Source: a virus. Taken from it: a stretch of 64,000 nucleotides of DNA. Shown here in pieces: positions 3,392 through 59,430 of the stretch (positions within the stretch are counted from its first letter, which is position 1; each line of letters starts with the position of its first letter). The DNA lies in the IMG/VR virus record IMGVR_UViG_3300017964_000010, positions 1 to 64,000 of that record; one strand, 5' to 3'. A model generated the notes under the pieces. That model was given only the letters and a program-made list of their open reading frames with translations, made no database searches and was not told the DNA's origin. The translations under genes were made by a program, and so were the position numbers.

Positions 3392-6300
3392 TTACTTTTC
3401 TGTTAAAATCCAACCACGGCTTGCGTTATAATAAACTAAACCAAATGAAGCTTCATTTACATCTACGGTTAAATCTGAGTCTGTACCCTGTATCCTATCT
3501 GAAGAAGTTAATATAATATTATTTGTTGCACAGTTTCCGGAGCCATCAATAATTCTAATTTCATTACCAAATGTCGGAGAACTAGGTAAATTAATTGTTA
3601 TAGAATTTGAAGATGTGTCAATTACTAATTTTTTATTTACTGCAGCAGTATATGGTGTAGTATTTACTTCAACATAATCATTAGCTAAAACACTATTTAC
3701 AATACCCGTCACATAATCGGAGTCTGCTCCAGTAATTTTTAATACAGATGAAGTATTTGTTTGTAAAGTATTAATTACAACTTCATCCGCAGCTTCTGTT
3801 GGATCGTTAAAAGTAATAGTATTTGTTGTTGAGTTTACAGTAAAATCTGATGCTAAAACTCTAATACCATTTATAAACACCTGATAATTGTCTGTATCTA
3901 TATTTAATGTTTGTGCATTAATATCAGCACCGGTAAATACCGTTTGTCCAGAATCTGCGGAATAAACATAGTTTTTAAAATATGACTGATTGTGGAAATA
4001 ATTGTTATTAGTAAATTCTTTTATATATGAATTACTATGTGCTGTAATAAGTAATTCGGTTCCGTTTACAACAGGATCAGTAAGAGTAAGAGATGTTCCA
4101 TTTGTTGCAGTATAATCAACACCATCTATAATTACAATACCATTTAAAAATACTTGAAGTTGACCAGAATTATATGATAAAGTATTTCCTACATCATCCG
4201 CGCCTGTAAATATGGTTTGATTAGAATCGGAAGTATATCTAAATGTTGTTGTTGCTGGATCATTAGAAGAAGTAAATGTAGATAAGATATATGCTGAATC
4301 CACAATACCCAATACTTGAGCAGAATCAACAGTTGAAATTCTTGCATTAATATAAGCCGAATCAATAGTATTGATATAATCAAACTGTGGGCTTCTGGCA
4401 AGAATATAAGCTGAGTCAATAAGAGCAACCGTTTCTGCTTCTGTCATTAAAAAACCATCAGCTAAAGCTGAGTCTAAACCTTTTATTTGTCTTTCTCCGA
4501 TATATGCTTCATTTACTATTGATGCAATATAAGCTGAATCCACTGCTCCACTACCAAGGAAAGCAGTAATTGTAATTTCAGAAGAGGACTCTGCAGCATC
4601 GGTAAGTACAATAGAAGATCCGTTAGTTGCGGTATAATCGGTAGAACTCAATAAAATACCATTCATAGAAACTATAATTGCACCAGGATGATAATTAAGT
4701 GTATTACCATTATCATCTGTTCCACTAAAACTCGTCTGATTTAACGACGCTGTATAATTATATACATCTAATCCGGGTAAACTTCTGTAAGTTGATACGT
4801 TTGATAAATTATATGCTTGAATTGTAAGCTCGGATGTTGAAGGAGCAGCTGTATTAAGAACAATAGATGTACCATTAGTTGCTATATAATCATCTGAATC
4901 AGATAATAAAATACCATTTAAATAAACTTGTATATCACCAGACTGATAAGATAAAATTTTACCTTTTATATCAGAACCCGTAAAAGTTGTTTGACCAGAA
5001 TCTGCAGTATAAATAAATGTTGATATACCATCAAGGGCTTTTGAACTTCTTACTCTTTCATTAATATATGCAGCATCTATTAATGCAACTGTATCGTTTG
5101 CAACTATAGTATTAATTACAACTTCGTCTTCAATTATTGCAGCTGTACCAAGAGTAATTGTATTTGTGATAGGATTTGCAGAATAATCTGATCTAAGTAA
5201 TCTAATACCATTTATAAATAATTCATAATTAGAAGAATCAAATGCTAAAGAATTTCCATTTACATCATTACCACTAAATATTGTTTGACCAGAGTCTGCA
5301 ATAAATTTAAAATCTACAAAAGATGCATCAACGGCATTTAAAGAAGAACGTGCAGAAATATAAGCTGAATCAATTATTGCAATTACATCAGCCGAGTCTA
5401 TTGTACCAGTTCCTCCACCAGAATTTGTTGAAGGATTAAAAGTAAATATTCCAGTTGAATTATCATAAGACAAAGAACCGCCGCCTGATGCAGAACCAGT
5501 AGTAACTGATAATCCCGCTCTTGCCTCCGATAAACTAATACCAGAACCACCACCAGACTGTCTAGCTTGAACATAAGCCGAATCAACAGTATTTTGAATA
5601 AGAATAATTGTTGAAGCAGAATCTACTGTACCACCACCGCCGCCACTTATAACAAGATCACCAGACCCTAAAAGTGTATTTCCATTAATTGTTTTAATAT
5701 TGGTTCCAGATACAAGTGTTGATTGAGCATCCGTAATACCATATCCAGAAATTGTGGTAGGTATGCCCGTTAATGAACTAAATGCCCCATCAAACGCATC
5801 CGTAATGCCATAGCCAGCTATTGTTGTTGGCGTACCTGTTAAAGAACTGAAAGCTCCATCAAATGCATCCGTAATACCGTATCCAGCTATTGTTGTTGGC
5901 GTACCTGTTAATGAACTAAATGCCCCGTCAAAATTTACAGAATAATCTGGACCAGAACCACCCATACCACTATGATTAGTGCAATAATAATGTAATCTTG
6001 GTGTTGCAAAAGTAACAGCTATTTCTGTATAAGCACCTGAACTACCAGGTGTTCCAGCAACTGTAACACCTGTTGAATATGTGGCACTTGGACTATTATT
6101 AGCATTAGTTGAAAATCTGAGTGGGTGACCAGAGTTTGATGCATCTGATTGATCGAACCTATATGTTCTGCCGGGTTGCAAATGAAGAACCGGACTAACC
6201 GCCCCACTAAAATAATATTTATTACCAGTTCCATACTCATTAGTACCGCTTGCTACAGTAACTAATACTGTGGTAATAGTTGGCAATTTAGTAGCAATAT

Positions 6301-57181: not shown

Positions 57182-57419
57182 GATATTCCTCGTGTTCGTT
57201 TTCCCACATATTGATACAATTACGAATACCAAGAGCAAGAGTTTGATTATAGTCCATCATTTCTTCCCACTCATCTATAACTTCATATATCTGTTCTTGA
57301 GTAAGTTCAATGATTTCAACACCAAAATGATTTTGAATTAATTCTTCTGCCCATTCTGTTACATAATTTTCTATCCAGTCAAGCATCTTGTGTGCTTTAT
57401 ATATTTTAAACTTATTCAT
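57174..57419 (-). CDS. Small acidic protein of unknown function (81 aa)
   Basis: Not recognised. Helical and acidic: KMLDWIENYVTEWAEELIQN, HFGVEIIELTQEQIYEVIDE, then WEEMMDYNQTLALGIRN and an EHEEYLV end. Its start overlaps the MazG-like gene's stop by 8 bp. The acidic surface could suggest protein binding, but there is no motif. It is upstream of the nuclease in the same transcript. Confidence 0.7.
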   Translation of the reverse strand: MNKFKIYKAHKMLDWIENYVTEWAEELIQNHFGVEIIELTQEQIYEVIDEWEEMMDYNQTLALGIRNCINMWENEHEEYLV

Positions 57420-57753
57420 CTATTAGATTACTCCAAGTTTTAAGTTTATTTCTTTTAGAACTACTTCTTGCATAAATTTCTTTCCAATCAAGAATACCAT
57501 GTTCACACATTAAATCAATCATACAATAAACATCTCCAACTTCTTCAAGAAGTTTATTTCTTTGATCATTTTCTATATCCGATATTTTTTCATACTTACG
57601 GACAATCTTACTACACCTTTGTGTAAGTTCACCACATTCTTCAGCAGTAATAATCATTAACTGCTGAAGTTTGTTGATGGGACTAGTAGGATTAGAATTG
57701 CTTTGTCCAAGATATTCTTCATAATCCTCTAAATCGTAAAACATTCCAGTCAT
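57412..57753 (-). CDS. mazG: MazG-like nucleotide pyrophosphohydrolase (113 aa)
   Basis: All-alpha NTP-PPase fold with both metal-binding motifs: EExxE in AEECGELTQRC and the ExxD helix in LLEEVGDVYCMIDLM. MazG proteins hydrolyse (d)NTPs or alarmones to monophosphates plus pyrophosphate. In marine phages they are thought to alter host nucleotide or ppGpp pools, though targets differ between members. It sits in an accessory operon of coupled genes: 4-bp overlap with the 66-aa gene before and 8-bp overlap with the next gene. Confidence 0.87.
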   Translation of the reverse strand: MTGMFYDLEDYEEYLGQSNSNPTSPINKLQQLMIITAEECGELTQRCSKIVRKYEKISDIENDQRNKLLEEVGDVYCMIDLMCEHGILDWKEIYARSSSKRNKLKTWSNLIDE

Positions 57754-57950
57754 AAAAATTGTACCTCCACTACTTCTTTTTCTTTCATCAAAGTAACGAC
57801 CCTAGCTTTGCTATGCTTACCCCTTACGTGAACTTCAAACCATTCCCTGGCTTCCGTTTCAGTCTCGCAAACTACTGCAACCCACTCAGGCAATTCACTC
57901 TTGACTGCTTGGCACATAGTGCTGAATTGTGTTGTTACCGTCCAAGTCAT
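57750..57950 (-). CDS. Small protein of unknown function, GC-richer (66 aa)
   Basis: Not recognised. Reads MTWTVTTQFSTMCQAVKSEL, PEWVAVVCETETEAREWFEV, then GKHSKARVVTLMKEKEVVEV. Its codons are visibly more GC-rich than the neighbours', as is the adjacent 58.09-58.27-kb element. A compact beta-alpha-beta pattern is likely. It overlaps both neighbours by 4 bp (ATGA), so it is translationally coupled. Confidence 0.65.
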   Translation of the reverse strand: MTWTVTTQFSTMCQAVKSELPEWVAVVCETETEAREWFEVHVRGKHSKARVVTLMKEKEVVEVQFL

Positions 57951-58081
57951 TTGTTAAGCATCCTCATACAAGTTAAAACCGAGTTTTCTTCTAGGCAGTC
58001 GCTCCACACATAGTAAGTATAGTAGCCAAAGCCTGTGAAAAATACTAGTGAGCAAGCAATAATAATCAAGTTTTTAGTCAT
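57947..58081 (-). CDS. Tiny single-pass membrane protein (44 aa)
   Basis: Short frame with SD AAAGGAG. Residues ~4-24 (NLIIIACSLVFFTGFGYYTY) form one membrane segment, followed by a small tail with two cysteines (WSDCLEENSVLTCMRMLN). It resembles small inner-membrane peptides of T4-like phages. Function unknown. Its TGA overlaps the next ATG by 4 bp. The upstream leader is the inverted-repeat element at 58093-58274. Confidence 0.65.
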   Translation of the reverse strand: MTKNLIIIACSLVFFTGFGYYTYYVWSDCLEENSVLTCMRMLNK

Positions 58082-58092
58082 TTTTAAACTCC

Positions 58093-58274
58093 TTTCAGCA
58101 TACGCCTGAGCTAGTATCTCCAATCTCTCCGCACGGCCTTATTGACATTGCCGCTCTAGTTTGATTGAAACTAACATCCATGGTTTTCACGTCACCGATA
58201 TTTCGCGGGCGAATATATTCACCAGAGATAGTGCTTTTAGCTGATCAACGCCTCCACACAGACGTATGCTGAAA
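58093..58274 (-). other. Inverted-repeat-bounded element, candidate structured RNA/leader
   Basis: A 16-bp inverted repeat (58093-58108 and 58259-58274, 15 of 16 identical) closes a 150-nt interior. Read on the minus strand, internal hairpins are visible: TTAGTTT-CAATC-AAACTAG, GCGGC paired with GCCGT around a 12-nt loop, and ATATTCG paired with CGAAATAT with a bulge. GC is about 46% by count, higher than the flanks. Its 3' arm ends right at the SD of the 44-aa membrane gene. No tRNA, tmRNA or named riboswitch signature was found. It also contains a 28-codon ORF ending in the 3' arm. Confidence 0.5.
58095..58181 (-). CDS. Candidate 28-codon ORF in the inverted-repeat element
   Basis: ATG to TGA in the element reads MDVSFNQTRAAMSIRPCGEI then GDTSSGVC. 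The same frame is open, without a canonical strong start, for about 20 codons further upstream (SGEYIRPRNIGDVKT). The sequence looks protein-like, but there is no good SD before the ATG and the stop lies in the closing stem. It could be a real small gene or an accident of a structured RNA. Confidence 0.3.
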   Translation of the reverse strand: MDVSFNQTRAAMSIRPCGEIGDTSSGVC

Positions 58275-58287
58275 AGAGTCTTTAAAC

Positions 58288-58590
58288 TCAATCCCATTCA
58301 TTATCATACCTTATTGTTTCAAACATTGTTTCTCCATAGTGTTCTTTTGCATATTTGGACCCATCAGTCCAATAATTTGGATTTTCACCATCTTTTATAT
58401 TTAAGATAGTAAGAGGATCCTTACGGTTCTTACGTGCTTTTAACATAACGGAACGAGCTTTTTTACCTTTCTCTTTAATCTCATTCATTTTAATTTGACG
58501 AGCACGGTCGGCTTTCTTTTCTGCTTTACGTCTTTCTGCAATCTCTTTGATGAGAGTAAGACGTTCGGTTTGTGTTTTAGCTATAGTCAT
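58288..58590 (-). CDS. Small basic protein of unknown function (100 aa)
   Basis: Helical and strongly basic: TQTERLTLIKEIAERRKAEK, KADRARQIKMNEIKEKGKKA, then RKNRKDPLTILNIKDG and the end HYGETMFETIRYDNEWD. Not recognised. The ATG at 58590 is preferred to 58659, since the earlier one would put the start before the promoter's -10. The gene is downstream of the promoter at 58618-58646. An RNA- or DNA-binding role is possible from charge only. Confidence 0.65.
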   Translation of the reverse strand: MTIAKTQTERLTLIKEIAERRKAEKKADRARQIKMNEIKEKGKKARSVMLKARKNRKDPLTILNIKDGENPNYWTDGSKYAKEHYGETMFETIRYDNEWD

Positions 58591-58662: not shown

Positions 58663-59430
58663 TTAAGAGAAAAAATCATCTATAATATTAAAGGCATCTT
58701 CAATACTAAGTTGACTATTAATTCCATATGTTTCACGATTCCCAGTTTTTTCAATATCTTTATCCATTATATCATAATGGCTTAAAAATTCGAATATCTG
58801 TTCTTTGCGATATGCAATCTTATCTTTCTCTTGAGCTTGTATTTGAAATCTAAAATGTTTTATGTTTCCATCGGATGCAACCAAAATATTTGGTTGTAAT
58901 TGTTCACGAGTGGAAAAACTAAGCCAAGTCATTTCAGATTTAATTTCTACAACTGTAAGCCGTCCTTTTAGTTTTTCATAGTTTTCTATATACCATTCAG
59001 GTAAAGCTTCAAAATTATCCTTCTGTGATGAAGTATAAACATTGAAAAGTTCGGAAAATTTAGCCATTTTAAAACACTCCTTATAGTGGCCAGACACACT
59101 GTTATCCGATGGTGTGTACGATGAAATAAGATATGATTCAAGAAGAAATGATTGAGCATCTTTTTTTCTATCAAAATCAAATCTTTCAAGATTTTTAGCT
59201 ATAATATAAAGATCATTTATATCATAGTCCTTTTCTTTAATGTGCTGTATTGCACGATTACGATTACCTTTACCTATATATTGCCATTTGCCATCTTTTA
59301 AATAGCCGTAGACATATTGGCCTAAAGTTTGCCAAAAATCCATAGGTGCGCTATTCAGAAACGGTGCAAACTTAACATTTTTTCTTGGCAGAACCTCTAC
59401 AGCACCTGGAAGTCCAAAAAAAGCACTCAT
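58663..59430 (-). CDS. GIY-YIG nuclease-like protein (255 aa)
   Basis: Residues ~35-105 match the GIY-YIG fold: YVYGYLKDGKWQYIGKG, the catalytic Arg in GNRNRAIQH and the Glu helix (SFLLESYLI). The YIGKG..NR..QHI form is like the LEM-3/ANKLE1-type branch. The C-terminal half (~115-255) is unrecognised, with a helix near the end (SQLSIEDAFNIIDDFF). It may be a homing-type or DNA-repair nuclease. The start is taken at the ATG at 59430 just after the previous gene's TAG; the upstream ATG at 59442 overlaps the previous gene and lacks a clear SD. Confidence 0.75.
   Translation of the reverse strand: MSAFFGLPGAVEVLPRKNVKFAPFLNSAPMDFWQTLGQYVYGYLKDGKWQYIGKGNRNRAIQHIKEKDYDINDLYIIAKNLERFDFDRKKDAQSFLLESYLISSYTPSDNSVSGHYKECFKMAKFSELFNVYTSSQKDNFEALPEWYIENYEKLKGRLTVVEIKSEMTWLSFSTREQLQPNILVASDGNIKHFRFQIQAQEKDKIAYRKEQIFEFLSHYDIMDKDIEKTGNRETYGINSQLSIEDAFNIIDDFFS

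Follow-up and report, generated by a model that had tools for sequence, protein, structure and literature searches.

The window analysed here, a 64,000-nucleotide stretch belonging to a 74-kb IMG/VR virus record, carries a long inverted repeat between two small minus-strand genes. An earlier note on this DNA had placed the repeat at 58093-58274. It is present there, and automatic extension enlarges its arms to 58081-58108 and 58259-58286 (28 nt each, 82% complementary), with the perfect 12-mer TTTCAGCATACG occurring exactly in these two arms only. The element proper is slightly longer than that placement, at 192 nt, and belongs to the minus strand; this strand assignment had been missed. Its borders, 58279 to 58088 on the minus strand, are set by the limit of P1 pairing across homologues: pairing in the outer helix P1 is 93–100% out to 21 bp, save for one often-mismatched position, and is down to background (0.15–0.5) by pair 24. 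The minus strand folds at -59.4 kcal/mol (z -3.47), better than all of 200 shuffles, while the fold of the plus strand is weaker (z -2.55), and the neighbouring genes share the minus-strand sense of the element. The locus comprises the following features:

58088..58279, minus strand: whole structured RNA element, 192 nt, with boundaries defined by homologues and covariance model
58260..58279, minus strand: P1 5' strand ACUCUUUUCAGCAUACGUCU, part of a 20–21 bp helix with double changes in 9/20 pairs among 28 members
58088..58107, minus strand: P1 3' strand, containing the Shine-Dalgarno GGAG (58092-58089)
58231..58259, minus strand: P2 hairpin GUGU-GGAG-loop-CUAAAA-GCAC, with a covarying stem
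58242..58247, minus strand: P2 apical palindrome UGAUCA, candidate kissing-loop dimer contact
58175..58230, minus strand: P3 arm with optional extension; only a small hairpin in short forms and missing from some members
58111..58174, minus strand: P4 arm (UUAGU...ACUAG), truncated or replaced in L038, L276 and L292
58131..58156, minus strand: P5 and the most conserved core, GAGCGGCAAYGUCAAUAAGGCCGUGC, near-invariant in alignments
58276..58289, minus strand: upstream hairpin GAGUUUAAAGACUC, which by its sequence would compete with outer P1 for ACUC
57947..58081, minus strand: gene for a putative membrane protein of 44 codons, immediately downstream, without a match in Pfam or PHROG
58288..58590, minus strand: 100-codon gene (ends DNEWD), directly upstream; its homologue in L112 also precedes the element

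The upstream hairpin GAGUUUAAAGACUC is found in the subset of members that share the upstream gene of the window. Further downstream, on the minus strand at 57412-57753, lies a gene for a MazG-like pyrophosphohydrolase; in L034 and L043 its homologue is the gene immediately behind the element.

At least about 60 distinct homologues were recovered from the uncultured viral contigs of IMG/VR (here numbered with an L). The first relatives were obtained via a neighbouring gene, and the most conserved stretch of the element then served as the query. The pattern of the P5 core was the productive one, returning at least 100 stretches, some of them unrelated, and a P2 pattern added further members; a pattern from the P1 arm fetched mostly unrelated contigs because P1 is variable. 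With duplicates removed, the alignment comprised 56 full members and the statistics used 61; pair counts and palindrome columns refer to 28 aligned members, and the covariance model was built from 42. Every member is metagenomic, and the family frequencies given here are minima. A blastn comparison of one member with 50,697 annotated phage records gave no match. Eight phage records linked by the baseplate gene, of which seven are cultured or complete, contained no convincing match to the covariance model, and in 84,980 genomes of bacteria and archaea there were two core-only matches, which were judged to be chance.

The homologues define a cloverleaf, or four-way junction, in which the outer P1 of ~21 bp is followed by P2, P3 and P4/P5. 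The short hairpin P3 carries the optional extension in the window, and P4 carries P5 with its near-invariant core. The earlier note had described several small hairpins inside the long repeat; the four-way junction and the palindromic loop of P2, the key feature of the element, had escaped it. In the 28 aligned members, 95.8% of paired cells hold a pair, compared to about 40% when partners are slid as a control, and both partners have changed in 25 of 54 pairs, where shuffles average 12.5 (a value of 25 was reached in 0/500 shuffles). Compensatory changes, the absence of which had been named as grounds for giving up the candidate, are thus found in the stems: CAGC/GCUG is replaced by CCUC/GAGG in P1, GUGY/GCAC by GAAC/GUUC in P2 (L168), and CGGC/GCCG by CAGC/GCUG in P5 (L297). 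P1 contains 145 G-U cells and 8 A-C cells, an excess indicating that it is the transcribed strand that folds, as RNA. Together with the many homologues and the lack of an Rfam match, these changes bear out the suggestion of a new structured RNA, and the element is shown to form a conserved RNA secondary structure composed of P1, P2, P3 and P4/P5.

The size of the RNA varies from 75 to 220 nt across the family. Most of P4 is missing in L038 and others, P4 is reduced to a stub in L292, and the minimal form (L276, 75 nt) consists of P1 and P2 alone. P1 and P2 thus represent the common core. The conservation of P5 points to an additional role that dimerisation would leave unexplained, which weighs against the dimer model proposed below. 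Inspection by eye found no signature of a kink-turn, a tetraloop receptor, a hammerhead or a hairpin ribozyme. The longest sense ORF lying mostly inside the element has anything from 7 to 60 codons, depending on the member, and a protein-coding small ORF was rejected on the basis of this variation. The 28-codon ORF that overlaps part of the element in the window, for which both a leader peptide and a by-product had been considered, is therefore a by-product.

The central four bases of the P2 loop are self-complementary in all 28 aligned members. They occur in five Watson-Crick versions (GGCC, GATC, GTAC, CCGG and GCGC) and one G-U variant, GGCU. For 14 of the 15 distinct loop types, the centre of a Watson-Crick palindrome falls exactly six bases away from the closing U; the exceptional type, GGCU, is self-complementary via G-U pairs. 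Alignment columns 34-37 and 35-36 are complementary in 28/28 members, with columns 35-36 composed of GC (14), AU (8), CG (3) and UA (3). Because the adjacent bases 35 and 36 cannot pair within one chain, their covariation is a sign that one copy pairs with another. Such reasoning has also been applied to the OLE and GOLLD RNAs, in whose loops changes from palindrome to palindrome were read as evidence for homomers (PMC12286853). Shuffle tests on single loops are weak (p 0.03–0.7); the strength of the evidence lies in the shared centre and the variety of the palindromes, not in tests of single loops. From the sequences, the palindromic P2 loop points to homodimerisation by a kissing loop.

How stable is the loop sequence itself? 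In a tree from which the P2 loop was left out, at least 14 changes fall on the central four bases of that loop, a figure that is approximate given the short and weakly supported tree, and shuffled labels average 13.5; the loop thus changes as frequently as labels assigned at random. L196 and L174, which outside the loop have only 2 differences in 139 positions, carry entirely different loops, GGCC and GAUC. The P2 loop is often replaced, by recombination or mutation, while its self-complementarity is kept. Two different loop types are also present in each of the tandem pairs of L129 and L134. Their second, P4-less versions, at 421-529 on the minus strand of L129 and at about 5890-5995 on the minus strand of L134, both carry the palindrome CCGG.

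These two tandem copies are the exceptions to an otherwise single-copy element. A single full copy is present in 28/28 element-bearing records, including contigs of 178–275 kb. In a second set of records, 13 of 14 contain one match each, with partial forms counted, and in the remaining record a single place was read on both strands. With one full copy per record as the norm, a multi-copy repeat or MITE was rejected. Most members are oriented with transcription; only 6 of 61 have a promoter upstream. In L113, L121, L124 and L127 a consensus promoter is followed by the element and then by tRNA genes, and the element also precedes tRNAs in L149, L172 and L194; in L149 a phage cluster of 13 tRNA genes (615-2273) lies directly behind it. 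A terminator follows the element in L181, L183 and L196, and L155 contains a stand-alone unit of TTGACA-17-TATATT, element and T8 terminator. These promoter and terminator signals predict stand-alone transcription in at least one genome. Other members lie between protein genes. The downstream features (MazG, several small genes, tRNAs, terminators) are unrelated across members, the same upstream gene precedes different downstream genes and the reverse, and in close relatives of the MazG neighbourhood the element is missing at the syntenic site.

In the window, the element ends in AAAGGAGT, the Shine-Dalgarno sequence of the 44-codon gene (ATG at 58081-58079), which lies within P1 and has a predicted unpaired probability of about 0. 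Across the family, GGAG is found in the P1 3' strand of all 26 members (of 61) with a start codon 14–16 nt downstream, and none of the 32 members without GGAG has such a start codon. The mean unpaired probability of the Shine-Dalgarno sequence is predicted to be 0.009 in the full fold and 0.57 with the P1 3' strand alone. Opening or cutting P1 should therefore turn a directly following gene on, according to these folding models, an effect inapplicable to about half of the family. The idea that the element gates translation of the tiny membrane protein gene is consistent with this arrangement locally; as the general role of the family it does not hold, since homologues precede other genes, tRNA operons, terminators and promoters.

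The earlier note had recognised no tRNA, tmRNA or riboswitch signature, and the searches agree: tRNA and tmRNA searches of the window were empty, and none of the Rfam 15 families (including GOLLD, ROOL, OLE, tRNA, tmRNA, 6S and known riboswitches) matched the element at the gathering threshold or at relaxed thresholds. GOLLD- and ROOL-like Rfam families gave no match in the window or in ten related loci. GOLLD and ROOL are RNAs of phages and prophages, frequently encoded close to tRNA islands, whose copies assemble into homo-oligomers by kissing-loop contacts (PMC12286853). The present RNA shares with them the change of loops from palindrome to palindrome and is likewise phage-encoded and tRNA-adjacent, the latter in a minority of at least 7 contigs. 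It differs from them in size and architecture, GOLLD often exceeding 800 nt. T4 itself encodes two small stable RNAs within a tRNA cluster, C and D (species 1 and 2); as homologues they were dismissed, the covariance model revealing no similarity, and the fold of RNA C has a tRNA-like T arm. PeSL cassettes of T4-like phages are intergenic stem-loop elements as well and have been linked to gene shuffling; they are described as combining an early promoter with a stem-loop and as occurring at high density (PMC4503421), whereas the present element normally occurs in one full copy and contains no promoter. A riboswitch would be consistently upstream of related genes, which the element is not.

Loop-loop self-recognition with changeable sequence types is familiar from the HIV-1 dimer initiation site and the kissing loops of plasmid copy control, which are unrelated to the present RNA in sequence, structure and biology. 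Most likely, the element is a new phage noncoding RNA, analogous to GOLLD and ROOL and not a member of either. The RNA family is outside Rfam and, within the largely open-access literature, undescribed, and an earlier description elsewhere is possible.

We propose, with a probability of roughly 0.5, that uncultured T4-like marine phages encode in this element a small noncoding RNA that is released through P1, homodimerises through P2 and acts in trans. In this model the ~21-bp P1 would be cut, probably by an RNase III-type enzyme as judged from the length of P1 only, and cutting would release the RNA from tRNA or mRNA transcripts. The released RNA would homodimerise through its palindromic P2 loop (UGAUCA in the window) and could have a trans-acting role comparable to that of the phage RNAs GOLLD and ROOL. 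Where the element directly precedes a gene, the P1 3' strand doubles as its Shine-Dalgarno sequence, which would allow translation only once P1 is opened or cut. The covariation, the usual single copy, the predicted stand-alone transcription and the variable neighbours favour a trans-acting noncoding RNA over a cis-acting riboswitch, and the palindromic loop favours homodimers. The repeated replacement of the palindrome suggests selection on pairing specificity with like molecules. Whether this extends to a phage RNA that recognises its own copies, switching loop types as if selected for self/non-self discrimination between co-infecting phages or for escape from a host factor, is a tentative and rather doubtful proposal.

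A purely cis role would also fit the 26 of 61 members that directly precede a gene with its Shine-Dalgarno sequence in P1. In such a leader, a riboswitch-like or protein-bound junction would hide this sequence and free it on a signal, with the upstream GAGUC...GACUC hairpin, able to compete with P1, as the alternative partner; the strict association of GGAG with a start codon and the predicted gain in accessibility after a P1 cut argue in the same direction. On the other hand, about half of the members have no gene with its Shine-Dalgarno sequence in P1 and are followed by tRNAs, terminators or promoters, the downstream genes are unrelated, the element normally occurs once per genome, and regulating one gene does not require a palindromic loop. 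We therefore consider a cis-regulatory leader unlikely, if not without some claim. The exchange of neighbours on either side and the vacant syntenic site of the close MazG-neighbour relatives would be expected of a PeSL-like shuffling or mobile cassette, a recombination or insertion module spreading between intergenic sites. A single full copy per record as the norm, the want of a consistently linked mobility gene, and the RNA-level selection evident from compensatory changes in many helices and the transcript-strand bias make this distinctly improbable.

The palindromes themselves (GATC, GGCC, CCGG, GTAC and GCGC) are typical modification sites, and the usual single copy per genome would suit a DNA-level site for a methylase or other dimeric DNA-binding protein, or part of an origin. 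However, the palindrome sits in the loop of a hairpin with a covarying stem, G-U cells in P1 far outnumber A-C cells and the element mostly follows the direction of transcription, so that such a site seems very unlikely. Just as little probability is given to a processing spacer, in which P1 merely provides an RNase III site separating RNAs and the interior is of little consequence: the ~21-bp helix, its placement between genes and tRNAs and an interior reducible to P2 alone would agree with it, but the near-invariant interior positions and the covarying palindrome would not, and many copies would be expected of a spacer.

The family thus adds an RNA outside Rfam, in at least about 60 distinct versions, to a common kind of marine virus, and its covariation supports the RNA fold and also an interaction of one copy with another. 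Few natural RNAs form homo-oligomers, and the present candidate, at 75–220 nt, is small enough for direct work on structure and dimerisation. The rapid switching of palindromes predicts that RNAs of the same loop type pair and those of different types do not. On the doubtful reading of recognition between copies, these phages would possess a small RNA that assembles with itself and has allelic pairing specificities.

The carriers are uncultured T4-like marine phages. One gene of the window resembles the baseplate wedge genes of T4-like phages, with 36% identity to its best match, in Phage C48C1, and 32% to that of Pelagibacter phage HTVC008M. A tmRNA match of alphaproteobacterial type was obtained in 9 of 11 records tested, eight of them over the cut-off; the window's own record, which is incomplete, gave no such match. 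These tmRNA sequences suggest that the hosts are probably Alphaproteobacteria. The tmRNA genes at L121:9498-9753 and L203:6640-6911 score for both permuted and alphaproteobacterial families, and tmRNA genes likewise occur in the records behind L128, L155, L035, L185, L194, L200 and L219.

In the window, a 255-codon gene on the minus strand (58663-59430) has a weak match to PHROG 5356 and by eye looks like a GIY-YIG endonuclease, an identity that a Pfam search did not support. Just upstream of the element, L160 and L203 share the hairpin GGGGAGGGGCACUGCAGAAAGUCCCUCCC. Downstream of it, at about 9155-9270 of L131, the G+C-rich hairpin GGGUGUAUGCAUCACCC exposes a palindromic AUGCAU loop and is possibly another structured RNA.
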